A DNA stretch of 64,000 nucleotides from Cheilinus undulatus (Eukaryota > Chordata > Actinopteri > Labriformes > Labridae), in the NCBI RefSeq assembly GCF_018320785.1, contig NC_054873.1:27432196-27496195 (forward strand). The letters are read 5' to 3'. This document shows, in pieces, positions 3,001 through 63,743 of the stretch (its first letter is position 1; every line of letters begins with the position of its first letter). The position numbers and the translations under genes were made by a program. The notes below the pieces were generated by a model. That model ran no database searches and was not told the DNA's origin. It saw only the letters and a program-made list of their open reading frames with translations.

Positions 3001-3076
3001 CGGGTCTCTTCGCCTCACTGAATGGGAGCAGCAAAAGGAGCAGGGAGGCGAAGAGGAGAGAGGAGGTCAAACGCAT
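1..3076 (-). CDS. lrrc17: Leucine-rich repeat-containing protein 17 (5' part of gene, truncated by window edge)
   Basis: Secreted LRR protein; the mammalian orthologue is described as an inhibitor of osteoclast differentiation. Coding exons on the minus strand: 3076-2952, 2870-2394, 2308-2094 and 118 to beyond base 1. All junctions are GT-AG with matching phases (2, 2, 1). Exon 1 starts at an ATG followed by a Leu-rich signal peptide (MRLTSSLLFASLLLLLLPFS). Exon 2 holds the first LRR block, with LRR strands such as LISLDLQQNHITLVEEGAF, and an LRR C-terminal cap with NPWSCLCPMDSLI. Exon 3 is a linker that ends in the cysteine-containing start of the second LRR block. Exon 4 continues with VVHIDLSHNSISHLKAKNF. 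Order and spacing match human LRRC17. About 311 codons are present; the rest lies left of the window. The gene is antisense to, and upstream of the visible exons of, fbxl13. Confidence 0.9.
740..1314. mobile_element. hAT-like non-autonomous DNA transposon (copy 1 of a two-copy family)
   Basis: Terminal inverted repeats read CAAGGTTGTTATAGTT at the left and, reverse complemented, CAAGGTTATGATAGTT at the right. The element is flanked by 8-bp duplications differing at one base (GTTATGAG at 732-739 and GTTATCAG at 1315-1322). The interior is rich in AACTAAA-type sequence and has no coding potential. It lies in the last visible intron of lrrc17. A second copy in opposite orientation is at 19616-20195. 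The 8-bp duplication suggests the hAT superfamily; no transposase is present to prove it. Confidence 0.75.
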
Positions 3077-3444
3077 CCTGAGCCCTGCAGGGATTGTCCT
3101 TTTGAGTGAGAAGAGCTGGAGTCAAAGCAGCAGTTTTTGATGAGAGTCTTAGAAAAACAGCAGCACTGGTTCAGAGGTGAACAGTGCTATTGTTGATGGG
3201 ACACAGCTGCTGCTACGCCTGTGGAGAAAGTGAGAGGAGGAACATTATGTAAGAGCCAGGACCCTTTTGGGAATGTATATACACATCTGACAGAAAGCAG
3301 AGGACTATCACACTTCATGCTGGCTCTTACATAATCCCAAATATTAATTTTAATAAAGCAGTTTACATATAAAATTGTTGCTGAGCACCCCCACAAAGGG
3401 CAGTACAAGCATTTCTACAAACTTTGTTTCATGTTGTTTTTCAG

Positions 3445-17000: not shown

Positions 17001-18200
17001 AACTAGGGCCAAATGTGGCCCTTGGCCCCTTTTTAATTGGCCCACAGAAAATTTAAAACATACATGAAAAATGACCCACATTAGGACATGAAACTTGTGC
17101 TCTTCTGAACTGTATAGTTTATCTGTTTTCTTATTGACTATAGTTTTGTGTGACCTTGGGGGCTCGTCTGGGAGGGCAACACAATACTACACTTGTCTGT
17201 CAATTAGAAAACAGATAAAATATATAGTTTGCGAAGACATTATGAATTTATTTGGATTAGTGTATGTTTTATTTTCAGCACTAGGCAAGGCTACTGCGCT
17301 AATTCTGTAAACAAACATTTTGACACAACGATTCATTAATGTACTTTTTTCGTGACTTAACTGTAAAGCATATTAAGTCACTTAGTGCATCTTTACCTAA
17401 ATTGGACTGGATTGACTCACTTTGATGTCATAAAGGGGAAGTGTATCACAGTGGCCCCACCATCCTTGAATTTTCTGTATGTGGCCCTCTGTAGAAAAAT
17501 TTTGGACACCCCTGGCCTAAGTAAAGTCAGGTTATATGATTTCTTTTTTTTTTTTTTTTTTTTACGAACAACACTTACCCTGATTGAGTGCAGCAGACAG
17601 TTGCCCTCCTCTGTCTGAACTTTGCATGTATCACACTCCATTTTCCTCACTTGCACGTTACCTTTTCCTTGAGTGGAAATTAGGACATCTTACAATAAAA
17701 AAAGATATGTTAGAGTAGAGGGAGACCAAATGACAAGCTGGTATAATAACAGCGCCATTAAAGGGACACTCACTGCTTTTGATAGGTGCCGCCACATCAA
17801 TAGACACACTGCTGTCCACTTTCTCGGCTGAGATGAGCAGCTCTTTGCTCTGTTCATCGTAGCGAACATCTAACTGATCCAGACCGATCTCCTCGGTCCC
17901 GTGTACAGTGATGAAAGCTCGGTCAGCCTCAGGGAAGCTGTGCGGGTCAAGCGGGCGGACTGAGATGCTACAGCCTAGCCGTGCACGTACCGTGCTGAAG
18001 GGGCTCACCTCCAGAGCCCACTGCTTCAGAGGAGGGTTTACCCCCTCATGTGATGGAGACTTTAAAGTGGCTGAGATGGAGAAAAACCTTGAAGGGTGCA
18101 GAGGACAGCGGCGTGCTGTAAGAGTCTGGTAGGTGAGAGTCACGGACCAGCAGCGGAGAAGCCGGAGACCTCCCCGCTGACCTGCCGAGACCCAGAACAT
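14049..18200 (-). CDS. fam185a: FAM185A (DUF4097 / adhesin-like beta-repeat protein), complete
   Basis: Eight coding exons on the minus strand: 18200-17774, 17688-17579, 16386-16294, 16123-15985, 14787-14746, 14641-14546, 14430-14296, 14161-14049 (stop TAA). All junctions are GT-AG with matching phases, for 384 residues against about 392 in human. I chose the ATG at 18200 because the frame upstream is closed just before 18221. The N-terminus (MFWVSAGQRGGLRLLRCWS) is Arg-rich without acidic residues, like a mitochondrial presequence. The body is a repetitive beta-rich DUF4097-type fold: VRPLDPHSFPEADRAFITV, VRKMECDTCKVQTEEGNCLL, VDVKKLQGTRMNVSTERG, LKVSSHSGGINVYVG, and a C-terminus ending KTQSWFESLKLGS, all matching human FAM185A. 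Exon 5 is only 42 nt. The molecular function is unknown. Confidence 0.92.
16989..17514. mobile_element. hAT-like MITE in fam185a intron 2
   Basis: Ends read CAGGGGTGTCCAAACTAGGG and, reverse complemented, CAGGGGTGTCCAAAATT. The flanking 8-mers ACCTGAGT (16981-16988) and GCCTAAGT (17515-17522) agree at 6 of 8 positions. The subterminal sequence carries GGCCAAATGTGGCCC-like text at the left and gtggcccc / gtggccct near the right, typical of Charlie-type hAT relics. No coding capacity. Confidence 0.7.
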
Positions 18201-18769
18201 CTCTGTTAGCTTCCGGTACACTCACACATTCATACCGTAAACTGGTGCACTCACTGTGAATTTACAACACAAACTACAGGGTAAGACAAGCTTTCATTCA
18301 GTCAACGTGAACTGTCTCCAGGAAGTCAAACTTGTTCTTTCAGTCAACATTAGAATTCTCTTTCCGGCACGTTTCAAACTAAAAGCATGAACTACTACTT
18401 TAGAAAGCCATGTAAAAAAGCAAACTCATGACTTAAATTTTGTTGAGGATTACAAAATGTAAGTAAGAAAAATATCTAGACCATAAGCTTCCAAAAAACA
18501 ATCATTTTAATCCTTGGATTAATATCCCATCCTATGAATAAGAACATTTTTCAATAAATATTAAACACTGAATTCGTTTGCTTAGTTAGGTTTTGGTGTT
18601 TTTATTTCAAGTGCAGCTCAGTCAAATAAATTGAATTAAATTAATCTAGCCTAAGCATCAGTCTCTCTCCTAATTTTCTTGAACTCAAACCTTCCTCTTA
18701 TGGATTTTTTAGAATATTCTTTTATTAAATCTTACTGTTGAATCGAATTTTACTTAAAAAAAAGAGTTA

Positions 18770-19615: not shown

Positions 19616-20195
19616 CAAGGTTATTGTAGTTTGGTTTTTTTTTAATCAGTTTTAATTTTTATTTCACTTTTTACATTAAATTTTTATTCGTTTTTCCTGC
19701 TGGTTTGTTAGTTTAGTTTTGATTTTTTTTTTTAAATACCTAATTTTAGTTTAGTTTTTTATTAGCTTTATTGATAGTTTTCATTTACAACAATATGGGA
19801 TTCTTGCCAGGGAAAGACCCAAGAGGGTCAGAAAAAGAAATCATCGAACAGTTAGAAAAAAACAGGTCTCTCTTCACTTTTCATTTGTTTATTCAAATCA
19901 GACACTTGAGTACAATTCACAACCTAAAATAATCATAATATGAAGTCTTCTTCAATCAAATCAGGCCATTTTGCACTCTTTAGGCTTGGGTGGACATGTC
20001 AGTCAGTAGACTGCTGTTGAAGGCTTTAACTAAGTAGATTTAGTCTCTAATTTTAGTTTAATTTAGTTTGTTTTGTAAACACAGAATTCGGTTTGAGTTA
20101 GTTTTCTTTTTAAGTTTTTTTAGTTTCAGTTAACTCAAATTGTTTTATCATTTTAGTTTTAGTTATTTAGTAAGTTTTAGTATAGAATAACCTTG
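19616..20195. mobile_element. hAT-like non-autonomous transposon (copy 2, inverted relative to copy 1)
   Basis: Left end CAAGGTTATTGTAGTTTGG; the right end reverse complemented reads CAAGGTTATTCTATAC. The interior matches the reverse complement of the element at 740-1314: gaagtcttcttcaatcaaat here against the same text with one change there, plus a shared GACCC-rich patch. No convincing 8-bp flanking duplication (CTGTGATG against CATTGGTG). Confidence 0.65.
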
Positions 20196-20275
20196 CATTG
20201 GTGTAAGTGTGATGCACTATATTGGCATACAAATTAAATGAAAAAAATGAGTCCAAAGCTGATGTACCCATTACT

Positions 20276-20281
20276 TTTATT
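20276..20281 (-). promoter_or_regulatory. Candidate fgl2 polyadenylation signal
   Basis: AATAAA on the minus strand about 450 bases past the fgl2 stop codon, just outside the upstream transposon copy. Confidence 0.45.
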
Positions 20282-20731
20282 TATCTTGACAAAACAATCA
20301 TGATTATAAAACAACCCAGATATCTTCAGTCAACCATCAACTGAATATCAGTCCTGAAATAAAAGTCCCAGTCTTTGTTGCCACGTATCCAGTTCAGATC
20401 GCCCTCAGTGAAAAATGACTTTTTACTTGAGGATTTTCCTTTTTTGTCCGGGGACAAATTCCACCAAAAAATCTTGTGAAATATAAATATATATAAAGGC
20501 TATTAAAATGGATATGAAATTGGGACATTAACCTCTTAACTATATACACCTTCAGTTATTGTCATATAAACAAAACAATATCACATAATCACCGTAAGAC
20601 ATCAGTATCGTGTCAGCAGTTAATATTTGCATGGATAGTGTAGTATACTGGGTTTAACTGTAAGCAGCATGTAAGAGCTTCTTGGCAAAAATAAGACCCT
20701 TTGTGTTTATCTTGCATGTCAGAGTTCCAGC

Positions 20732-21441
20732 TCATGATGCAAAGCCTTTTGGCCGTATCATCATCCTGACAGCTTTAAAAGACTGTCTGTCATTGGTGGG
20801 GTAATACTCTGTTGATATGTTATGCCATGTCCCCCAGAAAATCCCATCCCGAACACCCTTATACTTCCCAACATAATATCTCCCGTTCAGGTTTGCAGCC
20901 ATGCAGGCATCAAACCACCACCCAGAGCTGTAGTAGGCCCCACAGTTCCCAGATGGATACCTGTCATGGTCCCTATCTGGGGTGGTGAACGCCCTGTTGT
21001 TGTGGTCATAGAATTTACTGAAGCGCAGAGCATCACCTGCAGTACCTGAGTACCTGCCTACTGACAGTCTGTACTGCATCCGTTCACTTGCCACCTCAAA
21101 ATGATCGTACTCTGCAAACGCCATCACCCCATCAAAGTCCTCCAGCTCCACCCGCAGCACCATGTCCCTGTCCCGAGTCAGCAGGTGGATCATGTTGTTG
21201 CCCAGCCAGAACTCTCCCCCATCCAGCTTCCCAAAACCTGCTCGGTACTCCGCCCAGGTGCGGTTGAAGCTCACGCTGCCATCCTGTCGGCGCTGCAGGA
21301 GCGTCCAGCCTCCACCCTTTAGCTCCATGTCACAGAAGGCTGGGAAGCTCCTGCTGCGGAGGTCAGGGGTCACCAAGTACACCCCACTTTTTGTCTCCCC
21401 CCTGAGCTTGTAGTCTGAGCAGTCTCTCCTCACATTTGTTC
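20732..21441 (-). CDS. fgl2: fgl2 exon 2: fibrinogen C-terminal domain
   Basis: Encodes the whole fibrinogen-related domain: DCSDYKLRGETKSGVYLVTP at its start, GGGWTLLQRRQDGSVSFNR, EFWLGNNMIHLLTRDRDMVL, the GTAGDALRF segment, the calcium-site loop TTPDRDHDRYPSGNC and the WWFDACMAANLNGRYY block, ending MIRPKGFAS. The cysteines and calcium-binding Asp residues expected for the fold are present. The acceptor ttttataatcttcag precedes GA, so the exon begins with two bases of a split Gly codon. It is well preserved, which argues against a pseudogene. Confidence 0.95.
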
Positions 21442-24400
21442 CTGAAGATTATAAAAAGAGACAGCATTAAGAATCACTCCCATTACACCATGAAAACTTG
21501 CTCTACATCTTTTAGAGCCATGGTTCCCATCCCTTTTTCCTTAGAGGCCCCCCTAAAAGCATCTTGATTGTCAAAAATTGATCTAATTTAACTTTTTGAT
21601 CATATTTCAGCAGAAAAGGCCTAATAACACTTGCTTCTAGCAAAAGGCCTGTGCACAAACAATACACTAAATGTAATACTAGTTTATAGGGACCTCCTTG
21701 TGACCCCCTGAGAACTGTGGCACTTCCACTTGGGGGGTTTTAAGCCCAGGTTGAGAACCAATGTTTTACAGAGTCTTCAAACCAAAGTCCTGATTTAGCT
21801 AAACATGCAGGTAAAATCATCGCCTTGCAGCTGTGTGTAGCCATGAAATGAGGTCACTAGTGCAACAGGTCGGAGCTAAACTACTTTTCCACCATAAAAG
21901 CTCTGGTGTTTTAGCAGCCTTTAAAGGTGGACCTCCAGAGAAGTTTAGACATAACATTTGAATTGGAAAAAAATTGGAGATTTAAGTAGACACCTAATTA
22001 TGTATTTATCAGTAGAACAACTAATTTTCAGCCTCTCGTTGTTTCTTTTATAGACAAATAAAGTCACTGAAATGAAGTAGTGTGTAAGGAGAGAGAGGTG
22101 AACAAGTCAGAAACTCATTCTGACCCTAATAAACTTGTAAGTGTTCAATTCATATAAATTACATGAAGCCCAGTGTTCAAATATAAAATCCCCAACCCCA
22201 TGTCAGCTTCTTACTATAAAGGACTCCACTTAAAAATGTTTTAAAGCTGTTGACAGTTGTGGCTTTATCCTTATAACAACACCCATGCAGCCACATGCTT
22301 TCTGCAGACGTCCATAAATTAGTTGGGATGCATGGTGAAAAGATGTTCTTAGACCACACAAATATATTATAATTTCTCTTTTAAGAGGCTCTGTTGTGCT
22401 TATTGTGTGGTGCTTTTGACTGAATCCCCCAGCACATGCTTTCTTAATGAGTAATGCAGCTATAATCACTTGAATGATGCACAACACATCTACAGTTTTC
22501 TCTGTGCCTATTTTTTCTGATGTAATTTCGACAACAGACAATAGATTTTTATGAGCTTGGTCGTAAATTGAAATGAGTGTTGTGATGGTGGCTCTTTTCT
22601 TGTCAGGCTTCATTTACCACAGTGCTGAAAATCTCAAACAGTATTGAGAGAAGTTGAAACAAAGCAAATATTACAACTCTGGCATGCATGCTTTTATAAT
22701 TACACAAGCAAACTCTATCAAGGATAACCACAGCCCCTGCCGAAAAGTTACTTGAAATGTTTTGGTAGAGCATAGAGGGGAAAACTGATCAACATGCAAT
22801 GGTATAAAATATATTTTCTCTTGCCTTTAGATGATATCTTCTTTGGGAGATTGGTGTCAGGCTTGCTGATGTCCTCTGGGAGCTCTTTTTGATGCCTATC
22901 TGGTGGACTTTTACTTGGACTCAGGCTGTTATTGAGAAAAGCTGCCACCTGGTTGATCTTTACTCGCAGCTCCCTTGAACTGGGGGTGGAAGACTCAACG
23001 ACCGAGGGCTCGGGGCCAGAGGTGGCCGGGGTTGTTGACCTGAGGTCCGGGGAGGCTGTGGAAGTAGTTTGGGTGATGGGGGAAGGGACTGGAACCATAG
23101 TTTTGTCTGGATCTGGAGTTGGCCTGAGTGCTGTTTCTTGTGCATTGTGAACATGAAGGCTGGGCTCAGTGTGTGAAGTTTGTTTTGGCTTAGCAGATAC
23201 TGGACCGGGAACAACACTCTGGAGGATGCTACGCATAATTTTGTTAGGTGTTGTCACTGGAATGGATGGTGGTTGGCTAACAGTTGGTGGCCCTAGATCA
23301 GATGTAATCCTGCTGTTTGGGCTCATGGTGAATCCATCAGGATGAGCACGAAGACGAGGGGAGGGTCTAGTCTCAAGGTTTTTGGAGGTCTTTGGACCCC
23401 GAGAGACAGTTTGCATGTTGTAGTGTTGATTCTTTGGTTTGAACTCTGCATCCTCTGGGAAATGAGGCGTATCAGTTTCAGAGTTTTGGATGTCCTCTGT
23501 AGTAGAAGTGGTTTGAGAAGGAGCTACATCTGTTTTGATCTGTAGACTAGTTAGTTTTGGCCTTTGCGCAGGTGTTTCTCCTGGCTTAAATTTAGGCCTG
23601 ATTGGCATCTTGTGTCTTGGGGGAGGCCTTGATATCAATGTTTTGTTGATTTCTGCTTCAGTTTTTCCTTTAGGCGCCGAGTTGGTGTCAACATGTGGCA
23701 ATTGTTCAGGTGAAGATGTCTTAGGCCTTTTGTTGATTTGGGTTTGATCAGGTTTAGGCTTCATGACTGGTTTAGTCTTTTGTCCTGGTACAAGTTTTGG
23801 ATGTTTCTGGTTTGGTCTAGACACTTGGCCAGGTTTAAGCTTTTGGTTTATTTTTGGGGTGTTCTGACCAGGTTTAGGCTTCTGATTAGGTGGTTTGATC
23901 GAGGCATGGTCAAGTGTTTGTCCTGGTGTGGAATACTGGATAGCTGTTGTGTCAATCAAAGGATCCCCATCAGAGCTCTTTACTGTGTCAGTTAAAGGTC
24001 TTTGGTCATGTGTTGGTGTGAGGTTTGTCATTTCACTTTTTTCCATTTCACGAACAGGTGTCAAATTTGGGTTAAAGGTAGGCCTTTGATCTGGTTTTGG
24101 GTTTTCTCCTTTTTCTGGCTCTTTGTTGATTATTTGTTTTTGGTCAGGCTTGGCGGTGTGGGCTGGAGGAACCAGTTTCTTGTCAGGTTTTGGTGGCAGG
24201 CTTGTGTCAGTGCTTTCCTCTGTACGTTCACGTACAGGTGTATGTTGCTTGTCAGTTGCAGGCCTCTGATCTGGTTTGAGGTTTTCTCCACTTTCTCGTC
24301 CTTTATTGGGTTTTTGTTTTTGGTCAGGCTTGTTGGTTTGGATTGGAGGAACCAGTCTCTTGTCAGGTTTTGGTGGCAGGCTTGTGTCAGTTCTTTCCCC

Positions 24401-27400
24401 CTCATGTTCACTACTAGGAGTATGTTGCTGGTGAGTTGTAGGAATTTGACCTGGTTTGGGTTTTTCTCTGCTTTCTGGCTGTTTGTTGGGTTTTTGTTTT
24501 TGGTCAGGCTTGTCGGTTTGGGTTGGAGGAGCCATTTTCTTGTCAGGTTTTGGTGTCAGTCTTGTTATTCCACTTCTTTCCTCTTCAAGTTCATGAACAG
24601 GTGTGAAGTTTTGGTCAAAAGTAGGTCCCTCTGGTCCTTTGTTAGGTTTCTGTTTTTGGTCAGGCTTGTTGGTTTGGGTTGGATGAACCAGTCTCTTGTC
24701 AGGTTTTGGTGGCAGGCTTGTGTCACTTCCTTCGCCCTCATGTTCATGACCAGGAGTATGTTGCTGGTCAGTTGTAGACATTTGACCTGGTTTGGGTTTT
24801 TCTCCACTTTCTGGCTCTTCGTTGGGTTTTTGTTTTTGGTCAGGCTTGTTGGTTTGGATTGGATGAACCAGTCTCTTGTCAGGTTTTGGTGTCAGGTTTG
24901 ATGTATCAGTTATTTCCTGTCCACTTTCCCATTCGTGAACAAGTGTTAAATTTCGATCTAATGTAGGCATTTGACCTGGTTTCTGGTTATCTCCACTTTC
25001 TGGCAGTCCTTTGTTGGGTTTCTGTTTTTGGTCAGGCTTTTTGGTTTGGATTGGATGAACCACTTTCTTGTCAGGTTTTGATGTCAGGTCTGTGTCAATT
25101 CTTTCCTCCTCATGGTCACGACCAGGTATATGTTGCTGGTGAGTTGTAGGCCTTTGACCTGTTTTAGGTTTTTCTCCACTTTCTGGCACTTCATTGGGTT
25201 TCTGTTTTTGGTCAGGCTTGTCGGTTTGGGTTGGAGGAACCAGTCTCTTGTCAGGGTTTGGTTGCAGGCTTGTGTCAATTCTTTCCCCCTCATGTTCACG
25301 ACTAGGAGTATGTTGCTGGTGAGTTGTAGGCATTTGACCTGGTTTGGGTTTTTCTCCACTTTCTGGCCCTTTGTTGGGTTTCTGTTTTTGGTCAGGCTTG
25401 TCGGTTTGGGTTGGAGGAACCATTTTCTTGTCAGGTTTGGGTGTCAGTCTTGTCGTTTCACTTCTTTCCTCTTCAAGTTCATGAACAGGTGTGAAGTTTT
25501 GGTCAAAAGTAGGCTCCTCTGGTCCTTTGTTGGGTTTTTGTTTTTGATCAGGCTTTTTGGTTTGGGTTGGATGAACCACTTTCTTGTCAGGTTTTGATGT
25601 CAGGTCTGAATCAATTCTTTCTTCTGTACGTTCATTTACAGGTGAATGTTGTTTGTCAGTTGCAGGCCTCTGATCTGGTTTGAGGTTTTCTCCACTATCT
25701 TGCCCTTTATTGGGTTTTTGTTTTTGATCAGGCTTGTCGGTTTGGGTTGGATGAACCAGTCTTTTGTCAGGTTTTGGTGGCAGGCTTGTGTCAATTCCTT
25801 CGCCCTCATGTTCACGGCCAGGAGTATGTTGCTGGTGAGTTGTAGACATTTGACCTGGTTTGGGTTTTTCTCCACCTGATGGCTCTTTGTTGGGTTTCTG
25901 TTTTTGGTCAGGCTTGTTGGTTTGGATTGGAGGAACCAGTCTCTTGTCAGGTTTTGGTGGCAGGCTTGTGTCAATTCCTTCGCCCTCATGTTCACGGCCA
26001 GGAGTATGTTGCTGGTCAGTTGTAGGCATTTGACCTGGTTTGGGTTTTTCTCCACTTGCTGGCTCTTTGTTGGGTTTCTGTTTTTGGTCAGGCTTGTCGG
26101 TTTGGGTTTGAGGAGCCATTTCCTTGTCAGGTTTTGGTGTCAGTCTTGTCGTTTCACTTCTTTCCTCTTCATGTTCATGGACAGGTGTGAGATTTTGGTC
26201 AAAAGTAGGCTCCTCTGGTCCTTTGTTGGGTTTTTGTTTTTGATCAGGCTTTTTGGTTTGGGTTGGATGAACCACTTTCTTGTCAGGTTTTGATGTCAGG
26301 TCTGTGTCAATTCTTTCCTCTGTACGTTCATTTACAGGTGAATGTTGTTTGTCAGTTGCAGGCCTCTGATCTGGTTTGAGGTTTTCTCCACTATCTTGCC
26401 CTTTATTGGGTTTTTGTTTTTGATCAGGCTTGTCGGTTTGGGTTGGATGAACCAGTCTCTTGTCAGGTTTTGGTGGCAGGCTTGTGTCAATTCCTTCGCC
26501 CTCATGTTCACGGCCAGGAGTATGTTGCTGGTCAGTTGTAGACATTTGACCTGGTTTGGGTTTTTCTCCACCTGATGGCTCTTTGTTGGGTGTCTGTTTT
26601 TGGTCAGGCTTGTTGGTTTGGATTGGAGGAACCAGTCTCTTGTCAGGTTTTGGTGGCAGGCTTGTGTCAATTCCTTCGCCCTCATGTTCACGGCCAGGAG
26701 TATGTTGCTGGTCAGTTGTAGACATTTGACCTGGTTTGGGTTTTTCTCCACTTGCTGGCTCTTTGTTGGGTTTCTGTTTTTGGTCAGGCTTGTCGGTTTG
26801 GGTTTGAGGAGCCATTTCCTTGTCAGGTTTTGGTGTCAGTCTTGTCGTTTCACTTCTTTCCTCTTCATGTTCATGAACAGGTGTGAAGTTTTGGTCAAAA
26901 GTAGGCTCCTCTGGTCCTTTGTTGGGTTTTTGTTTTTGGTCAGGCTTTTTGGTTTGGGTTGGATGAGCCAGTTTCTTGTCAGGTTTTGATGTCAGGTCTG
27001 TGTCAATTCTTTCCTCTGTACGTTCATTTACAGGTGAATGTTGTTTGTCAGTTGCAGGCCTCTGATCTGGTTTGAGGTTTTCTCCACTATCTTGCCCTTT
27101 TTTGGGTTTTTGTTTTTGGTCAGGCTTGTCGGTTTGGGTTGGATGAACCAGTCTCTTGTCAGGTTTTGGTGGCAGGCTTGTGTCACTTCCTTCGCCCTCA
27201 TGTTCATGACCAGAAGTATGTTGCTGGTGAGTTGTTGGCCTTTGACCTGGTTTGGCGTTTTCTCCACTTTCTGGCACTTCGTTAGGTTTTTGTTTTTGGT
27301 CAGGCTTGTCAGTTTTGGTTGGATGAACCAGTCTCCTGTCAGGTTTTGGTGTCAGGTTTGTTGTATCAGTTATTTCCTGTTCACTTTCCTGTCCATGAAC

Positions 27401-30400
27401 AGATGTTAAATTTTGGTCTAATGTAGGCATTTGACCTGGCTTTTGGTTATCTCCACTTTCTGGCAGTCCTTTGTTGGGTTTCTGCTTTTGGTCAGGCTTG
27501 TTGGTTTGGATTGGAGGGACCAGTCTCTTGTCAGGTTTTGGTTGCAGGCTTGTGTCAGTTCTTTCCTCCTCATGTTCACGACCAGGTATATGTTGCTGGT
27601 CAGTTGTAGACATTTGATCTGGTTTGGGTTTTTCTCCAGTTGCTGGCTCTTTGTTGGGTTTCTGTTTTTGGTCAGGCTTGTCAGTTTTGGTTGGAGGAAC
27701 CACTTTCTTATTAGATTTTGGTGTCAGTCTTGTTGTTGTACTTCTTTCCTCTTCGTGTTCATGAACAGGTGTGAATGTTTGGTCGAAGGTAGGCCCTTCT
27801 GGTCCTTTGTTGGGTTTTTGCTTTTGGTCAGGCTTGTTGGTATGGGTTGGATGAACCAGTTTCTTGTCAGGTTTTGGTGTCAGGTCTGTGTCAGTTCTTT
27901 CCTCTGTACGTTCATGTACAGGTGTAAGTTGCTCGTCAGTTGTAGGCCTCTGATCTGGTTTGAGGTTTTCTCCACTTTCTGGCCCTTTATTGGGTTTTTG
28001 TTTTTGATCAGGCTTGTCGGTTTGGATTGGAGGAAGCAGTCTTTTGTCAGGTTTTGGTGGCAGGCTTGTGTCAATTCTTTTCCCCGCATGTTCACGACCA
28101 GGAGTATGTTGCTGGTGAGTTGCCGGCCTTTGACCTGGTTTGGGGTTTTCTCCACTTTCTGGCAGTCCTTTGTTTGGTTTCTGTTTTTGGTCAGGCTTGT
28201 TGGTTTGGATTGGAGGAACCAGTCCCTTGTCAGGTTTTGACGGCAGGCTTGTGTCAATTCTTTCCCCCTCATGTTCACGACCAGGTATATGTTGCTGGTG
28301 AGTTGAAGGCCTTTGACCTGGTTTGGGGTTTTCTCCACTTTCTGGCACTTCGTTAGGTTTTCGTTTTTGGTCAGGCTTGTTGGTTTGAGTTGGATGAACC
28401 AGTTTCTTGTCAGGTTTTGGTGTCAGGTCTGTGTAAATTATTTCCTCTTCATGTTCACGACCAGGTATATGTTGCTGGTCAGTTGTAGGTCTCTGATCTT
28501 GTTTGAGGTTTTCTCCACTGTCTTGCGTTTTACTTGGTTTTTGTTTATGGTCAGGCTTGTTGGTTTGGGTTGGAGGAGCCATTTTCTTGTCAGGTTTTGG
28601 TGTCAGGCTTGTTGTTTCACTTCTTTCCTCTTCGTGTTCATGAACAGGTGTGAAGTTTTGGTCGAAGGTAGGCCCTTCTGATCCTTTGTCTGGTTTTTGC
28701 TTTTGGTCAGGCTTGTTGGTTTGGGTTGGATGAACCACTTTCTTGTCAGGTTTTGGTGGCAGGTCTGTGTCAGTTCTTTTATCTGTACGTTCATGTACAG
28801 GTGTAAGTTGCTTGTCAGTTGCAGGCCTCTGATCTGGTTTGAAGTTTTCTCCACTTTCTGGCCCTTTATTGGGTTTTTGTTTTTGGTCAGGCTTGTTGGT
28901 TTGGATTGGAGGAACCAGTCTCTTGTCAGGTTTTGGTGGCAGGCTTGTGTCAATTCTTTCCCCCTCATGTTCACGACCAGGTATATGTTGCTGGTGAGTT
29001 GTAGGCCTTTGACCTGGTTTGGGGTTTTCCCCACTTTCTGGCTCTTCGTTAGGTTTTTGTTTTTGGTTAGGCTTGTCGGTTTGAGTTGGATGAACCAGTC
29101 TCTTGTCAGGTTTTGGTGTCAGGTTTGATGTATCAGTTATTTCCTGTTCACTTTCCTGTCCATGAACAGGTGTTAAATTTCGGTCTAATGTAGGCATTTG
29201 ACCTGGCTTTTGGTTATCTCCACTTTCTGGCAGTCCTTTGTTGGGTTTCTGTTTTTGGTCAGGCTTGTTGGTTTGGATTGGAGGAACCAGTTTCTTGTCA
29301 GGTTTTGGTGTCAGGTCTGTAAAAATTCTTTCCTCCTCATGTTCACGACCAGGTGTATGTTGCTGGTAAGTTGTAGGCCTTTGACCTGGTTTGAGGTTTT
29401 CTCCAGTTGCTGGCCCTTTGTTGGGTCTTTGATTCGGTTGAGGTTTGTCCGTTTGGATTGAAGGAATAAGTTTCTTGTCAGGTTTTGGTGTCAGGCTTGT
29501 GTCAATTCTTTCTGGTTCACTTTCACGTTCATGAACAGTTGTGAAATTTGGGTCAAAAGTCGGCCTTTTATCTGGTTTTGGGTTTTCTCCTTTTTCTGAC
29601 TCTTTGTTGACTATTTGTTTTTGGTCATGCTCGGTAGTTTGGATTAGAGGAACCAATTTCTTGTCAGGTTTTGGTGTGATGCTTGTTTTTTCACTTCTTT
29701 CCTGTTCATGAACAGATATTATTTGCTGGTTAGTTGTAGGCTTTTGATCAGGTTTTGGGTTTTCTCCCCTTTCTTGGTCTTTGTTGGATTTTTGTTTTTG
29801 GGCAGGCTTGTTGGTTTGGGTTGGGGGAACTAGTTTCTTGTCAGATTTCGGTGCGAGTCTTGTTATTTCACTTCTTTTCTCTTCTGGTTGATGAACACGT
29901 GTGAAATTCTGCTTAAATTTAGGCTTTTTATCTGGTTGTGGGTGTCCTCCACTGTCTGGCCGCCCTTTGTTGGGTTTTTGGTTTTGGTCAGGCTTTATGG
30001 TTTGGATTGGATGAGCCAGTCTCTTGTTCTGAGCCGGAGTGTCTTTGCTGGAACGAGTTGTGTTTATAAGTTGAGGTCTTTTGCTGGGACTGACAGACTT
30101 TTGACGAGATATTGGCTTCCCGAATGGAACCTGGTTCCGAATTGTTGTATGTTCTTGGTCATGTTTGGATATTTGAATGCTTTCTAAATTTTCATTGGTG
30201 GGAGTTGTATCAGTTGGACGTACCTTGTCTGGTTTTTGACTCTGGATCCGTTTGGGGTCTTTACCAGGTGCAAGTTTCTGGTCAGTTGTTGGTTGTTGAT
30301 TTGAAGGCTTTTTCTTTTGTTCATATTTTGTTGACTTGTCTGGAAAATTAGTTCGGTCAGGCCTTTGATCATTCTCTAGATTTTTAAGCTTTCGGTCTGC

Positions 30401-32101
30401 TTTAGGTTTGTTTCCAGGTTTCTGTCTTTCATTTGGTTTTAATGCCTGGCCTGGCAGAGGTTTAACACCACCATCAGTGATTGTGCTGATGTTCTTTTTA
30501 GTCATTTTTGTTGAACTATCAACATCTGTGGAGTCTGATTTGGGCATCAGGTTGGTTGCATATGTTGACCAAGAAGTAGTACTTGATATCTGTTGTCCAA
30601 AGTCATCCATTGTGCTTATTGTAGTTTCTGTTGTTGGCCTACTGGTGCTCCCAGCGCTCTGCTTTTCAGGAATATCACCTGCTCCTAAACCTGTGCTTTG
30701 GGTTGGAAGTCCATCAGCAGATATTGTCTTGTCTTGATCAACATCTATGATCAGACGTGGAGTGGAGCTTGACAAAGGAGGGGATGGAAGAGATGACGTA
30801 ATGGTTATAGCTTCATTCAAGTCCGTGGAGCCATGCCTCGGAGCTACACTAATGATAGAGTCAGTCGGGCTGATGGAAACAAAGTCTGTCCCCTCGGTTG
30901 ACTTGCTTGACTCTAATTCTCCATCACCGTCTCTCTGTGCACTTTGGACCGCTTTTTCTCTTACTGTTCTGATCTCCTCTCCTGTTTCCTTCACCTCCCC
31001 CTCTTTTATAGTCCTCTCTTTTTCTGCATGCCCGATGCTCTCAGTCTGTTTTGGCCTCTCATTATTTTGCTCCACTTTTATTCCCTTTTCCATTTCCTTT
31101 CTCCTCTCCTCCCTGTGCTGCTCTTGCTCCTTATTTGTATGCACATCATGATCCTCAGACATCTTTATTTCATCACTACCCCTGTCCCTTTCAGTTGGGG
31201 ACTTTGTGCCTGTTTCCTTTGTCTCATCCCGCCACACGCGATGGTCACTGTCTTGTGTTTTGTTCTTGTTTTCCACATTACTTGATATTGTCCTCTCCTT
31301 ACCTTTGTCCAGACTCCCCCCTTGATCCAATTTTAGAGTCCCTTTCCTATCTTTTTCTTTACTTATGTCCGTCACTGTCCATCTGTTATTATCAACCACT
31401 TTTATTCCTACAGTATCCACTATTCTGTCATCCTCACTGGTCGTTGGCACCTTTGCCTGTCCCCATATGTCCTTCTCTTCTGTTCCTTTCATCTGAGTTT
31501 TTCCTTCTATTTCTGCCACTTCGTCCTCATTATCTTTTATAACCATTTTTTCGTTCACTCTTTTAGAGTCCCGTTCCTTTCTGTCTTCCAAAGTTGTTCT
31601 TTTTTCAGAGTCAATATTGCCATCTTTCTCTATCATACCTTCTTCTTTAGTTCTGACTGTCCCACACTTTTGACTGACATTTTTCAGTCTCTCAGGGTTT
31701 CTCTCATTCAGCCAGTTCCTCTCATCCTCATATATATTTGCACCCCCATTCATTTCTCTCTGTCTCCCACATTCTCTCTCACTTTGGCTTACTTTACAAT
31801 CTGCACACATCCTCCTCAGTTGATCCACATTGTCCTTCAATGTCTGCAGATCCTCCACGATCTTCTCCAAATCTCTGAGCTGCTTTGGCAAGTGAAAAGT
31901 TAGCGGAGGCAGACTGAAAAGGTATGGACACGTGCTCTCATCCTGCCCCTGTCTGCACAGCCCCTCAGGTCTCAAAGTTGCAGCGCAGGGCCCAAATCCA
32001 TAATCCCCCAGGGGGTCTTCTTCATCAGAGTCTGCCATGCACCAAGAGAGGCTGAAGAAGGCCAGCAGGGTCCCACAGATGCACAGTGCTGTTAACCTCA
32101 T
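20732..32101 (-). CDS. fgl2: Giant fibroleukin (FGL2-like) with an enormous tandem-repeat insertion
   Basis: Two coding exons: 32101-22825 and 21441-20732 (stop TGA), for about 3,328 residues; normal FGL2 is about 440. Seen: ATG at 32101 followed by signal peptide MRLTALCICGTLLAFFSLSW; an FGL2-type N-terminus with Cys 39, 49, 58, 99 and 102 and the motif CPYLFSLPPLTFHLPKQL, closely matching human FGL2; a Lys/Glu-rich region about 120-400; a Ser/Thr-rich region about 400-550; a Lys/Pro/Gln-rich region; about 34 repeats of about 60 aa (about 690-2680); a Pro/Thr/Lys linker to 3092; then a complete fibrinogen-like domain. Family knowledge: FGL2 is a secreted or membrane-bound prothrombinase and immune regulator. 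Inferred: the insertion is an extended, polyampholytic, possibly O-glycosylated stalk. The intron joins in phase 1 through a GC donor. Which teleost paralogue (a or b) is undecided. Confidence 0.88.
21529..21763. mobile_element. hAT-like MITE in the fgl2 intron
   Basis: Left end CATGGTTCCCATCCCTTTT; the right end reverse complemented reads CATTGGTTCTCAACCTGGG. The interior has the AGGCCCCCCT and gggggg patches common in Charlie-type hAT relics. Flanking duplication not intact. Confidence 0.5.
21764..22820. other. fgl2: Remainder of the single fgl2 coding intron
   Basis: The intron runs from 22824 down to 21442 on the minus strand. Apart from the MITE at 21529-21763 nothing is recognised; open frames around 22177-22613 lack family similarity and splice context. 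Confidence 0.4.
24060..30030 (-). repeat. Tandem coding repeat array of the giant fgl2
   Basis: About 34 in-frame units, counted by the recurring core PDKKLVPPTQTNKPDQKQ. The full unit is about 60 residues (180 bp): TPKPDKKLVPPIQTNKPDQK, then QKPNKGPESGENPKPGQRPT, then THQQHTPGREHEGERIDTSL. A shorter class lacks about 12 residues and reads GPEGPTFDQNFTPVHEHEEE after the PNK core. Units alternate in types and are most uniform at 25600-27300. Frame is kept through all units. Codes for Lys, Pro, Gln, Asp, Glu and Thr almost exclusively, with hardly any Cys, Trp or aromatic residues. Confidence 0.95.
25600..27300 (-). repeat. 696-bp higher-order repeat within the fgl2 array, about 2.5 copies
   Basis: Blocks of four units (60+60+60+52 residues, 232 codons) recur at a spacing of exactly 696 bp: matching text begins at about 25636, 26332 and 27028. 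The first two copies are nearly identical at the base level, differing at only scattered positions; the third is partial. 696 is divisible by 3, so copy number can change without breaking the frame. Confidence 0.85.
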
Positions 32102-32398
32102 CACGTCCTGACAGTAAAGAGTAAAAGAGAGGAGCGGGAGAGTGTTAAAAAGACCCACCTCAGTTTGAGAAGTGCAGTGACAGGGAGAGGAGGAGAGGAG
32201 TGGGAGGGAGAAGAGGAGGAACTGATGGAGCTGTTTAGTGGAAAGAGAGTGCAAAAGAAATGAGCTCTGAGAGGGAAACAGGTGTAAAAAAAACAAAGAG
32301 GGTGGGAGGAGGATTGTGCGTGTATGGATGTTCCTTTCAGCAGACTGGGTGATAGTAATGATAAGAGAGACACGTGAGGAAATGTCAAAACATTTGTA

Positions 32399-32408
32399 CT
32401 TTATATAA
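32399..32408 (-). promoter_or_regulatory. Candidate TATA box of fgl2
   Basis: Minus strand reads gttatataaagt, about 300 bases upstream of the start codon. Transcription would begin near 32370, leaving a 5' UTR of about 270 nt. Single motif, so moderate support only. Confidence 0.45.
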
Positions 32409-32409
32409 C

Positions 32410-35400
32410 ACCTAAAATTAGGCGGAACGGCCACTAATCTGTCATTTAGATGCGTAAACAATGAGAAAGCTCTGTGCCTTTGTGCAATCCTTTTATTGCA
32501 TTCCAGTGTATCATCTCTGTAATCACATCACTTGATGAGGACCATTTGGTGTGCATCATTACTTCATACTTGAGCATCACACCCTTGTATTCTCATGTGT
32601 GTCACAGTTGCTTTGGCAGGCCCTTCCCTAGCTTCCCGTGCGTGGGTCAACAAGCATGCGAGTGGCAGATGAGACAGGTCAAAATATGCATTTGGACCAA
32701 AATATTTAGCTGCTGAGTCAGAGCCAAGAGTTTGTTGCACAGATTTTTGAGGACATACTGTATTTCGTTTTAGCGTATGCTGCATGGTTTGCTGCAGCCT
32801 CGAAGTAATGAAAGTCAGGAATGTCAGAGCTGTCCAAGAAGCCCGCTTCATTCAAATGCAATGCCGGGGGAAGAGGCCTTTCTTGTGTGCTTTTTGACTT
32901 TATTTCAGACAGTACTAATCCTCAACAAATGCTAGGTCTGCTGAGGACCATCTGTTCAGCCAGGTTTTAGTTCCTTGCTAATTCACTGTGTCTACATATA
33001 GTTTGAAAAAGAAAGAGCAGTCACATGAGCTAAATGAGGCATCCGCTTGGTGGGGAGTTTAGATAATGAGGCTTCAGTTTGTCAGACTGGGGGTGTAAAT
33101 GTCAATCCCACCAAAGGATATGAGATATGAGTGATACACACAATACCAGCCTATTCAGGAGATTTTCCATCTTTAGCCCATGTTAGATAACTTTAGTTGT
33201 CTTGTTTTTACTCTGCAAAGAAACATGACCCTGGTGCATTTTTTGTTCTCTGGCCTGTTAATCCAACTGCACGAAGCTGGGGAGATTTCTCAGCTGGCCT
33301 TTTATAATCACAAAGGAAACCATTTGTTTGGCGAGAGGACTTTGGGAAGCATCGGGTTAGAGATGAAAAATGACTTAAGTAGAAGAAAACAGCTCACGAT
33401 AGAACAGCACGGGCCTGTGAGCTCATTGTTATGGCTGTAGAAACAATACCATGCAAAAGCCAAACATTTTTATATGCTTCCGTTTGCAGAAATGTCCAAC
33501 TCCTCCTTATCTTTGAAAAGGAATCTGTTATAAGTTTCAGCAAGACAGTATTAAGACTTTGTTATTGAAAATAAAGGTGGCATATCTGCATATCTATCTA
33601 TCCAAACATGCTCTGTATGACTCATCTGTGCTCATGCAGTGATGAGCTCATTTGACATTTGGCAGCTGTTTGCAGGATGAAGCCAAGGAACAAGTATCCT
33701 TTCACCTTTCACCATCCATTCAGCACTTTATCAGCCTACAAATAGCATTAGAGAAGTGTTTACACTTGGGAAAGGCTCCTGTCTGCACACCAGGGTGTAT
33801 TGATTTGTTATCAGAGCCAAATCTTCACAGACAAACTAAAACCTCAGAGAATCACTGCTTAGACACAACAAGCTAACCTGCAGCAATAACATCTGTAGGG
33901 CCGAAACCGATTAGTGCATTTAATAAAGGGTCCGTTCATTCAATAGTCACCCATCTAACTGAGTAAAATATGTTCTCATCAGCAGCAGAAGCATGGTGAG
34001 TGACTCCATTGTCCGCATACTAACACCCTTACTCCTGACTTTACCCATTTATGGACAGTAGGTTTTTTTATCCTCTTGTTGCTCTCTCAGGATCCAGTGT
34101 TTTGAATTCCCCTGGTGAGCTGGCTCAGCCCACTCCCTGTCCCAGATCTTGTAAACACTGTGCTTTTTTTCCACACAGACTAGAACAAACATCTGACCAT
34201 CAGTCCAGCACTGCTGCCTGGGCTTCCTGGCAGGGCACTTCATCTCGCTCCACTTTGGGCAGAGGAGCCAATGTCGTCGGTCATGTCTGTTATTTGCATA
34301 AGTGTCCCATTTCCAACCAAACTGGAGTGAACGAAGGGACTTTTGGGCTGCAGCACCAACCAGCCTGTTATAACACCACCTTTGGTCTGTCTGTTTGAAG
34401 GTATAATCCGACCTGAACAGCACTATGACAGTAATTCGCTGATAGCATGATGAAAACAAATAGACATGTAATCATTTGACATGTGTTTATACATTAATTT
34501 TTAACTTTCTATCATGCTTTCTGTCAATCACATGCACATACATGTGCACATGCTTATAATCAAATGAATTATCTATTCCTGATTCCTTAATTCTTCTGTA
34601 ACTGATACATTCCTTTGCCATGTGCAAGACTGATTTTTATCAGTCTATTGATTGATAGTGATTCTTGAAAATGAAGCAACCAAGTGTCCAACATCTGGGC
34701 TGGATTTCCTACAGCTAGCTAACACCAGATAACGTCAAGTCAATTTATTTTTTACTCTTAAACCTGGAGTTTATCAAGACTCTTTTTCAAATTTCAATCT
34801 AAGAATTGACCTTTCTATAAAAGATAAAGAGAGCAGGGGCTTCTGTCAGTGTGAATAATACTGGGTATTTTTTAAAATGAGTTTAATAGTATTAAATTTT
34901 ATCTATAAAGAGTTGCCGTAAAAGAATTCAGGGGTAGGTTTCTATTTTATATCATATCCTGATGTTTACACTGATTGGATTTGGGCTGCAGTCTCCTTCT
35001 GTCCCAGCTGTGGTTAATAGAAACCATGTGGATGGACTGGATGTAAATGCAGAGTAAGGTGTGACAAAGTTTATAGCTTAAACTCTGATTTGTTGACCTA
35101 CTTATTTTCTCTGTACCAATTTTACCTCAGTTTTGGAGGAGTGCATTAGGCTCTTAAAAGTTATTATGTTTCAATAACAGCTTGATTTTTCCATTCAGAA
35201 TATGAAACATCTTAAGTAAAGGATCACAACACATCCACTAGGTAAAGGTATGAGCGAGAAAATACCCAGAAGTAAATGCACTTTGTTCAGAAGACTTTCT
35301 CCTTCTGGTTTTTAACTGTTTAATTAATAATAAGATTATGAAATGACTGCTTATTCATTTGTAGGAAACCTCACCCGACTGAAAGCAGTCAAATGAGGAT

Positions 35401-40080: not shown

Positions 40081-40200
40081 TGTCTGCTGCTCTCCCTCCT
40101 CCGTGCGTCGTACGTGACTCATGAAGCCCCGCCCCAAGCCTGGCTCTCGCGCACCAGTTACGTATGACCGTAAAAAATAGAAACTTCCAAGATGGCCGAG
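40080..40200 (+). promoter_or_regulatory. CpG-rich promoter region of rsbn1l with a YY1-like motif at the start codon
   Basis: CpG density rises sharply from about 40100 through exon 1 (cgtgcgtcgtacg, gcgcacc, and many CpGs after the ATG). The text CCAAGATGGCCGAGG at 40187-40201 contains the AAGATGGC core of the YY1 site and overlaps the initiating ATG at 40192. No TATA box is seen, as expected for a housekeeping CpG promoter. Confidence 0.5.
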
Positions 40201-43200
40201 GCCGTGGACTCCATGCATTTCGCAGCAAACAGCAAAACAAATTCCCCCAAACCCTTGATAGCTAAACGGCCACCGGAGAGCCGACCGCAGTCTTCCAGCG
40301 ACATTTACCCGCCGCCCCCTAAGAAAGTCCGGGTGGAGGAGAAGGGCCTGAAGCACAGGAAACTGAACGGAGAGGTGTGCGCAGGGGAAAAACACAACGG
40401 GAAGCAGAGTTGTGGTAGCCCAGCGAAATGGAGTTTCGGCCCGGCCAAGGCGAGCCACTCCACCGCCGCCGCGGTACCAGTGACTCCTGCTCGGAAAATC
40501 TTCAAAATCAGCAACTTCCTCGCCTCCCCGCCGAAAATGAAAAAGGCGAAAGAGAAACGACACAAGGAGAAGGAGAAAATCAGTGAGGCGCAGCGGAGCT
40601 CAGCCGTTAGTGTGGAGAGAGTGAGCCCTGCTAGCTGCCATACAAAGACCGAGAACGGCGACATGAAAACGCTACCGAGAGGTAAGACACTCAGCCAGCC
40701 TGTCCACTACAGCTCTCTGTTATAACACTTTATGATGAAACTTAACCCTAAATGTGAAGCAATACTGCTATAAAATGCTTTATAAGGCTATTACATAATT
40801 TCCATGCCATAGGCCCCAGTGTTTATTAGGCCCAGATAGTGTTATATACACGTGGAAATGTTTGTTCGTTATGTTGCTCAGACTAGATGTTGCAGTGTTT
40901 CACCTCAGTCTCCTCTCCTGTTCTCTACAGATCACCGTGTGAAGGAGAAAGACAAAGAAAAGAAAAAGGAAAAGAGCAAAGAGTGGAAAAATCACAGAGT
41001 GCCACCTTTACATGACATTGCAAGAGAAAACGGAGAAGTGATTTCTCCACAGAAAGGTGAGGAGACAATGTGTGACGATGGGAATCTGTAGTTATTTTTG
41101 TTTTGGGGTGTTTTCATCACATCAGTCTGCTGTATATGTGTTGTTCTAATGATACACCAAGTTTTTCAGTTGCAACAAATCATTACATGTTACAGAGTAC
41201 TTGTGGCAACCAAGTCTAATCTAGTTGAAAAAGTCACAACTAGTTTTAAAAATATTCATAAAAGGTTCTTAAAAATGAACAGAAATTGTATTTATTTTTC
41301 TTTCTGTTTTTTTTTTTTTTTTCAAAACAGTGTTTTAAATGTGAAGTTCCTTAAATGACAAACATTACACATACATTGTTGTGACATTACAAAAAGTTGT
41401 CAAAGCATGGTTGTTATATATGGCTGTTAATATAAATTACTATCCTCTCATATTAAAAGCCCTGAAATGAAGCATGGCATTGTTCTGACTCTTGTCTTAC
41501 TCTCCATCACAGAGTGTAAGGAGAAGCTCAAAGCTGGTTCAGAGGAAGACCTCCTGCTGAAGAAGCTTAAGAAGAAAAAGAAAAAGAAGCACAAAGATGG
41601 CGAGCGGATGAAGGAGAAACACAGCCGACCGAAAATGTATCACCGCTCATGTCAAACAGTTTGTTCAGGAGTGTCCCTCGGCCTTCCCGAGCTCCTCAGT
41701 CGAATCAATGGAAACAACAGCAGCAGTCTACTCCACACTGCAGCACCCACACACCACCAGGATCCTGCTGCTACCTCTGCCTCCATCACCTCCATGGTCA
41801 GGGACAGACTCGTCTACAGCTCCCCGCTGCACTGCGTCCCATCGCCGGACCTCCCTGGTCTGGAGTTCGGCCGGCTGATCCACATTGAGCAGCAGGCCAA
41901 CGGAGGGGCCTCTGTGGTGCACGCCTACAGTGAGCAGCTCTCCTGTCTGTCTCCTGCTGAGATGCAGCGGTTCGCCCAGGAGTTTGTGACACTATCGTTT
42001 AGCGAGGATAACGGCCAGGCTGCTTGTTTTGTGATGGGAATCATCCACGGAGCTGCTTCCTACCTCCCAGACTTCCTGGACTACTTCTCCTACAAGTTTC
42101 CCAACGCACCAGTAAAGATGGAGGTGCTTGGGAAGAAGGACATAGAAACGACAACCATGGCTAACTTCCACTCTCAGGTGAGATTATAGCGTTCTGTGTA
42201 ATCTTTCCTCTCTAAAGCTGTCTGCTGGGGAAAGCTCTGTGTGTTGGAGGATGCTGAGATGTCCACTTTGAGAGTGTGAAGTGTTTGAAACTGTGAGCTG
42301 CACAGACTCACAGGCTGAATCAACACATCCACAGTTTTCTTTGTGTTTTGAAGTTTTTGGTGTGTCAGTCCAGACTGTTGATGGCTAAAGCTTCTTATCC
42401 TTTTGTGCGTTCACTGTTTCAGCATTCAGGTTGTGTTGAAGAGCAGTGTGCCTTGGTGCTGTTTGACATTGTTTGTCAGTTTGGAAACTAAGTGTTCGAT
42501 AGCAGTCCAGGCTGAGGTTGTAAGAATTTATTCCGACAGCTGTAGATACTATTAATGCCAGGATTTTAATAATTACATCTCCTTTTTTTTATGACCCCAG
42601 TATATTTTGGTTAAATATAACTGATCTTATGTTATACTGAATGTTAATGTAATCTATCTATTTTGACCCAAATAAGTCCAAATTGCATAAAATACATTGC
42701 TGATTTTTGGTACAGAAACAAGAAATTTTGGCTGCATTCACACCACAGCCTAAAGCGACCTGATCCTATTTTTAATCCAGTGGGAGCCAGATCTGATTTT
42801 TAATGACAGTTTTAATGCCTCAAATCAATCTCTTCTTTTTCAAATTAGACGTGGACCATTTTCAGGTTACAACAAGAAAACCACATCTGTTTTGATGGTA
42901 TCAAAACAGATGTTACCATTCGATTTTTATCAGAATCAATTAAAAGTCTGGTACAGTGACAACCCTTTTAAAGCACTTTAATAATTGATTTTTAATGCAT
43001 TTAGTGCTTGAAGGTGAGGTTACAATAACGGCGTGTGTTATGTTATCACTTTACCTTTCCACCAGTGTTTCTGTTGTCAGCATAAGTAAATGTAAAGCTT
43101 TTGCTTTTTTAAACACTTAAAAGTTTAAATTGCTTAAAAAATATTCTAGTCTTGAAAAAATTTCCTTGTAATCTCTAACAATGAGGTGCTCAGTTCTCAT

Positions 43201-63338: not shown

Positions 63339-63743
63339 TCAGTTTCTGCTGTAGTGAAAAACACTGTGTCCTAGTTCCACAAGTGCTCCACCCAACAGCA
63401 CCCACAGAGGCACACACACCACACTGACCCACATCTCAAAGAGCCTCTCCAGGTGTGAGCACAGAATCAGACAGAAGGCCAGTTTCAGCAGTAAGGCCGT
63501 CAGGTACCAGAGCTTCCTCTTCAAACCCTGCTCTCCATCCCGGGCATCAAAGGCCGGCTTGCAGCGTCCCGCCATCTTAACTATCAGCATGAGGATGAGG
63601 ATGGTGTCAAAGGTCCACACAGGAAGGAAGATAAGAAACCAGTTCCAGTGAATCTTAGAGTCCAGCTTGAGGACAAGCATGATGAGGAAGATGAGGGCGA
63701 AGATCCAGGAAAGGAGCACTCGCTGGGCCAGGGACATCTTCAT
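63339..63743 (-). CDS. tmem60: Transmembrane protein 60
   Basis: Single coding exon, 134 residues (human 133), starting at the ATG at 63743 directly after a splice acceptor (cttatcctctgtag), so a non-coding 5' exon lies to the right. MSLAQRVLLSW, the NWFLIFLPVWTFDTIL block, LIVKMAGRCKPAFDARDGE and LLLKLAFCLILCSHLE align along the whole length with human TMEM60. Four hydrophobic helices at about residues 8-27, 33-57, 76-94 and 103-125 predict a multipass membrane protein. Function unknown. Convergent with rsbn1l, the same arrangement as in mammals. Confidence 0.96.
   Translation of the reverse strand: MKMSLAQRVLLSWIFALIFLIMLVLKLDSKIHWNWFLIFLPVWTFDTILILMLIVKMAGRCKPAFDARDGEQGLKRKLWYLTALLLKLAFCLILCSHLERLFEMWVSVVCVPLWVLLGGALVELGHSVFHYSRN

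Follow-up and report, generated by a model that had tools for sequence, protein, structure and literature searches.

A Cheilinus undulatus fgl2 locus predicted to encode a fibroleukin of about 3,300 residues with a repeat-built linker

The fgl2 (fgl2a) locus of Cheilinus undulatus, as read from its sequence, appears to encode a fibroleukin of about 3,300 residues in place of the usual length of about 440, the middle linker having been enlarged by repeat duplication. Within the 64,000-nucleotide stretch of DNA analysed here (the window), exon 1 (32101-22825, minus strand, 9,277 nt) joins exon 2 (21441-20732, minus strand) in frame over 9,987 nt, giving 3,328 codons with no internal stop and a product calculated at about 372 kDa without its signal peptide. 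The reading preferred here, in which moderate confidence is placed, is that this is a real coding fgl2 gene whose disordered linker has reached about 2,937 residues, chiefly through duplication of a 60-residue unit, that its fibrinogen-related domain (FReD) heads are tethered, and that a 502-residue form may also be made.

Gene layout and the open frame

The features of the locus, in the order in which they would be transcribed, are as follows.

22825..32101, minus strand: fgl2 (fgl2a) giant exon 1, 9,277 nt, with a phase-1 end and no stops in frame
32036..32101, minus strand: signal peptide region, approximately residues 1-22, a hydrophobic run with a helix at 4-16 in a low-confidence model
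31796..31987, minus strand: conserved FGL2 head, residues 39-102, with C39, C49, CPYLFSLPPLT (C58), coil 1 and C99xxC102; common to fgl2b; predicted helix 74-117
30002..31795, minus strand: pre-array linker, residues 103-700, unique and acidic/basic, with C111 and C146; matches only itself in the genome of the species; no stops
31303..31303, minus strand: candidate alternative GT donor (acaaag|GTAAGG), phase 1, codon 266, of which this is the final exonic base; no GT donor in exon 1 scores higher
23990..30001, minus strand: tandem array, residues 701-2704, made up of 34 units (52-64 aa each) and including a 696-bp higher-order copy, from repeat comparison
22985..23989, minus strand: post-array linker, residues 2705-3039, unique and P/T/S-rich; matches only itself; no stops
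22925..22975, minus strand: putative coil-2 start RELRVKINQVAAFLNNS, residues 3043-3059, from an ungapped match to the coil-2 start of fgl2b
21442..22824, minus strand: intron, phase 1, of GC-AG type with the best-scoring donor, and with no coil-2 exon recognisable within it
20732..21441, minus strand: exon 2, FReD, with the stop at 20732-20734 (Pfam PF00147, E 6e-83; FGL1 in the PDB, E 6.4e-53)

The coordinates and strand proposed in an earlier note on this DNA were borne out, as was its fibroleukin of about 3,300 residues. The FGL2 N-terminus that it described is present, with a signal-like hydrophobic stretch, five cysteines (presumably those at 39, 49, 58, 99 and 102) and CPYLFSLPPLT, an instance of the CPY..SLPPLT motif that we take to be the N-terminal mark of human FGL2. 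Its low-complexity region of about 2,970 residues was found as residues 103-3039 (2,937 residues, the stalk), and the in-phase intron leading to an intact fibrinogen-like domain was recovered with phase 1 on both sides. The gene thus read would have two exons, with the intron immediately before the FReD, whose exon starts at 21441 after cttcag.

The start codon at 32101 is the sole in-frame ATG within the 360 nt up to and including itself, the earliest ATG, GTG or TTG of the open stretch being a TTG at 32461, and from 32101 the frame stays open down to 22748. An AlphaFold model of residues 1-267, built on a two-sequence alignment, had a mean pLDDT of 47 and reached fair confidence (means of 85 and 80) only over residues 81-100, in the coil-1 helix. 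Two further cysteines, C111 (31769-31771, minus strand) and C146 (31664-31666, minus strand), lie at the start of the stalk and are absent from fgl2b; they might pair with each other or across chains. No cysteine occurs from residue 147 to residue 3099 of the joined product.

FGL2 typically stands beside RSBN1L and TMEM60 in gene order. Fragments in the window which we take to be RSBN1L-like lie at 40192-42189 (plus strand) and in a charged open stretch at 58435-60123 (plus strand), neither with a Pfam match, and a presumed TMEM60-like fragment at 63339-63743 (minus strand) coincides with a match to Pfam PF10269. Pieces assumed to be LRRC17-like (2345-2869, minus strand, with LRR by Pfam), FBXL13-like (7919-8062, plus strand, an LRR piece) and FAM185A-like (17658-18221, minus strand, no Pfam match) lie on the other side of the gene. 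A Tc1-type transposase-like fragment was also seen at 53293-53619 (minus strand; DDE_3, E 1.9e-4, short of the Pfam cut-off), and Rfam gave no matches in the window at gathering scores.

The coding frame of exon 1 contains no stops, compared with 94 and 298 in the other forward frames and 127, 54 and 102 in the reverse frames, and the longest open runs in these non-coding frames are 56 to 301 codons. For the stalk, about 121 stops per frame were expected from 100 dinucleotide shuffles and none was observed, the longest frame in such shuffles (n = 200) being 150 residues on average and 260 at most. When residues 103-266, 267-700, 701-2704, 2705-3092 and the FReD were shuffled separately, stops appeared in 500 of 500 dinucleotide shuffles of every segment, so the A-rich, T-poor composition is insufficient to explain the open frame. 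One out-of-frame reading of the array also fell below its shuffles (41 stops, against a mean of 77 and a minimum of 56), indicating that repetition and codon use lower the stop count, though not to zero. Antisense open stretches were seen over the array at 24002-24901 (plus strand, 299 codons) and 27431-28240 (plus strand, 269 codons), and probably follow from its composition and repetition.

Growth of the tandem array and selection on it

Of the 34 array units, the last of which had its end placed by hand, 20 are of 60 aa and 6 of 52 aa, and the frame is intact across all seven of the unit lengths present. Adjacent 696-bp blocks are 97.8% identical in the one pair compared, and other chosen pairs of array blocks are 92-95% identical over the stretches compared; this high identity points to repeated and fairly recent growth by unequal exchange. 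When a repeat query was run against the 1.17-Gb genome of the species, 29 of 29 among the matches listed fell in this one frame, and the pre-array and post-array queries, among the best candidates scored, matched only themselves. Since all three match only this exon, the array most likely arose in place, as judged from these sequence searches. Derivation of the stalk from a mobile element or by gene capture was rejected at that search sensitivity.

Searches for known domains in the stalk returned no Pfam families for exon 1 (E up to 0.01), no NCBIfam matches for a five-unit piece of the array or for the first 267 residues, and no PDB chains for the five-unit piece (E up to 1). A homing endonuclease match to the first 267 residues (E 0.0078, residues 60-101) was weak and taken as chance. 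A scan with the FReD exon gave no pattern match in viral contigs and six in prokaryotic contigs, none of them a relative.

At least 375 substitutions are required on a neighbour-joining tree of the units. With these treated as independent, and given their codons, random changes would have produced 14.3-16.4 stops, the range reflecting transition bias; the units contain none (P 5e-8 to 4.5e-7). At the residue level the constraint is weak: mean pN is 0.189 and mean pS 0.238, with pN below pS in 443 of 561 pairs, and dN/dS has a median of 0.76 and a pooled value of 0.92 over 267 pairs with dS below 0.3. Of the changes in the anchor TxKPDQKQKPNK, 29 are at the first two codon positions and 34 at the third, compared with 244 and 131 for the whole unit, the middle of which varies freely. 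Weak constraint together with a conserved anchor indicates that selection appears to act on the open frame and on short anchors, and less on residue identity. The argument for selection made in the earlier note therefore stands for the frame and does not extend to strong selection on sequence; a dN/dS of about 0.8-0.9, implying little constraint on residue identity, counts against the preferred reading.

The same weak constraint, and the proneness of tandem arrays to misassembly, could be taken as signs of an assembly artefact or a decaying gene. This is very improbable, given that the units differ by many substitutions and the frame is nevertheless intact, that the head and the FReD are intact, that the assembly holds a single locus, and that even the compared 696-bp pair differs by 2.2%.

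Coil 2, the paralogue fgl2b and splice sites

The genome of the species also carries an ordinary paralogue, fgl2b (C23:21008612-21019216), which shares the head, coil 1 and FReD with the giant fgl2. The head and coil 1 are 42% identical to those of fgl2b over residues 1-104 (E 3.4e-12), and the fgl2b FReD, which is in three pieces, is 66%, 60% and 75% identical to the FReD of this fgl2. Exon 1 of fgl2b has 197 codons and ends at a GT donor; the fgl2b linker, at residues 118-192, is already a loose sequence 75 residues long. A separate 68-codon exon, which begins in phase 0 and ends in phase 1, carries the full coil 2 and a C-x3-C pair. The introns of fgl2b at the coil-2 start and within the FReD are both absent from the fgl2 of the window, so the intron layout differs between the duplicates.

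The segment RELRVKINQVAAFLNNS matches the coil-2 start of fgl2b with an ungapped score of 44, the best of 300 shuffled queries reaching 35. Beyond this start, coil 2 and its cysteine pair had no convincing counterpart in exon 1, in the three frames of the intron or in 20001-33500, where tblastn of the fgl2b coil-2 exon gave a best E of 4.1; a coil-2 exon hidden inside the intron was likewise looked for and not found. As the coil-2 start sits near the end of the giant exon, the growth is placed in the linker that runs from the coil-1 CxxC to coil 2, and would have proceeded mostly via unequal duplication of the 60-residue unit. The coil-2 start would have been kept and the remaining coil 2, with the pair of the Cys184/Cys187 type, lost, probably secondarily. 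The missing pair limits any claim of a human-type tetramer and not the descent from FGL2. It was overlooked in the earlier note, together with the GC donor at the exon end and the internal GT donor that would give 502 residues.

Non-GT donors are a rare type. The best end for exon 1 is nevertheless a GC donor, AAAG|GCAAGA at 22825 (22823-22825, minus strand), in phase 1 and with a score of 6.18, although 1.23 sites scoring as well are expected by chance in exon 1, so that it is unremarkable by score alone. From the coil-2 start (22925) to the stop there are 13 GT or GC sites, 7 of them in phase 1, and the other six phase-1 sites score 0.1 or less (0.1 for a GC at 22867, the rest below zero). 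With only one well-scoring phase-1 site after the coil-2 start, the position at which exon 1 ends is well defined. Among the weaker sites, a GT at 22915 (score -1.39) would, if used, shorten the protein by 30 residues.

The earlier note spoke of one open exon of 9.3 kb. The frame is indeed free of stops, and that it forms a single exon we infer, because a strong in-phase GT donor lies within it at 31303. This donor scores 7.18 against 6.18 for the GC site, the cost of GC being ignored, and joined to exon 2 it gives an in-frame product of 502 aa. Its use in most messages, with the giant form minor or conditional, is possible if somewhat doubtful: it outscores every other GT donor of exon 1 and has the same phase 1 as exon 2, the 502 aa are near the exon sum of fgl2b (a 197-codon exon 1, a 68-codon coil-2 exon and a FReD of about 230), and phase-1 acceptors inside exon 1 at 23454 and 23199 would also keep the frame on removal of the array, giving 712 and 627 residues. 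For the long form, moreover, splicing would have to pass over this better-scoring donor in favour of a GC (or weak GT) one.

However, when the 1.8-kb stretch is shuffled, a GT donor this good turns up in 24% of cases if phase is disregarded and in about 8% (one third of that) in the right phase, so the 31303 donor is suggestive and not proof. The splice scores come from a hand-written weight matrix, which gives two fgl2b donors only 2.3 and 2.5 and is therefore coarse. Codons 267-3092 are stop-free in both unique and repeated parts, which an intron would not maintain; this argues that the giant form has been translated through most of the growth of the array, and does not indicate how frequently it is used. 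Under the reading preferred here, in which the giant form is a real product, a shorter 502-residue form through the alternative donor would be possible alongside it.

Stalk composition and related proteins

The stalk is 33% charged, with a net charge of +0.012 per residue and 13.8% Pro; its charges are more evenly mixed than in shuffles, and its hydropathy is low and well on the disordered side. An AlphaFold model of a five-unit piece, which as a single-sequence prediction is weak evidence, had a mean pLDDT of 47.5 with 0 of 292 residues at 70 or above. The description of the stalk as a stretched charged polymer in the earlier note holds for the charge and probably not for the stretching, since the near-neutral balance would favour a flexible coil tens of nm across over a stretched rod. 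The contour length would come to about 1 micrometre (2,937 x 0.36 nm), but a chain of this kind would by estimate coil up, its ends lying some tens of nanometres apart.

Mucin domains are usually recognised by 100-aa windows with at least 40% Ser and Thr. In 100-aa windows of the stalk Ser plus Thr reaches a maximum of 38 and a mean of 16, with no window at 40, and the mucin likeness suggested earlier was not upheld. A glycan-bearing rod, in which the fibrinogen-related head would carry a domain of mucin or chondroitin-sulfate type, is unlikely: the stalk does have 488 Ser/Thr, 211 of them with Pro at -1, +1 or +3, and 26 Ser-Gly, of which 17 occur as [DE]SG[DE] and 22 have acidic residues within three positions on both sides, but there is no SGxG and one third of the residues are charged. 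Chondroitin-sulfate proteoglycans bear their glycosaminoglycan chains on Ser-Gly sites, and some of the Ser-Gly sites here may do the same, so the proteoglycan likeness suggested in the earlier note may yet apply. Lubricin (PRG4), in the part of the published account drawn on, has KEPAPTTP repeats over about 500 residues and a heavily O-glycosylated mucin domain with about 31% Pro (PMC13067954). The giant fibroleukin resembles PRG4, so far as that account goes, in a central repeat-built part rich in Pro, Lys and Thr between folded ends, and differs from it in having less Pro, more charge and too little Ser and Thr; homology of the stalk with PRG4 is not expected.

The likeness to FGL2 lies in the N-terminal head with CPY..SLPPLT, the coil-1 CxxC of the Cys94/97 type, the four-cysteine FReD and the intron just before it; the differences are the 2,937-aa linker, the GC donor, and the failure to find the 184/187-type cysteines or the greater part of coil 2. 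At the position of Ser89, the prothrombinase serine of human FGL2, a hand alignment to the human sequence tentatively places Gln94. The FReD cysteines are spaced 29/130/13, compared with 29/129/13 for Cys206/235/364/377 in the available extracts on human FGL2. According to the portions of two accounts that were drawn on, human FGL2 has 439 aa and two exons, the first covering 204 aa, its chains are joined via Cys94, Cys97, Cys184 and Cys187, and its monomer reportedly suppresses immune responses more strongly than the oligomer does (PMC5356913, PMC11141035).

The product is most likely secreted, and its head cysteines and coil 1 would hold the chains together near the N terminus, presumably by disulfide pairing. 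Each FReD head would hang on its own long, flexible, nearly charge-balanced and proline-rich tether, and with coil 2 and its cysteine pair lost the heads would no longer be bundled. The alpha-E form of fibrinogen adds a FReD to the alpha chain. The giant fibroleukin is like the fibrinogen alpha chain, as far as the published extracts describe it, in having a coil, then a disordered tandem-repeat tether, then (as in alpha-E) a FReD; the alpha chain, however, belongs to another branch of the family, with a 13-residue unit in 10 copies in human, compared with the 60-residue unit and 34 copies here. In the part of a study that was available, the alpha-C connector of fibrinogen is described as tandem repeats that vary in number and period among species and as contributing to fibre flexibility (PMC8745514). 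By analogy with this connector, on whose likeness any proposed function of the tether depends, the stalk would give reach, multivalent capture and extensibility.

It may tentatively be proposed that fgl2a is a gene of two lengths, in which a switch between the GT donor at 31303 and the GC donor at 22825 would yield either an ordinary fibroleukin of 502 residues or a tethered one of 3,328 residues with unbundled heads, converged on the alpha-E-fibrinogen plan. Paper listings from the openly readable literature on FGL2, fibroleukin and fgl2a (teleosts, skin mucus, tandem repeats) showed none describing a giant fibroleukin, most subscription papers and all sequence-database annotation being beyond their scope; in the accessible part of a cichlid study, a marker named fibroleukin serves genotyping (PMC12530302).

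If the preferred reading of a real gene with tethered heads is true, the locus would serve as a natural experiment on an immune regulator that is already known, with the second cysteine pair removed and the heads placed on long tethers. It would also join the fibrinogen alpha chain as the second case in which this protein plan has gained a tandem-repeat tether at a comparable position, and it offers a clear example of a disordered region whose frame is under selection while residue identity is loose.
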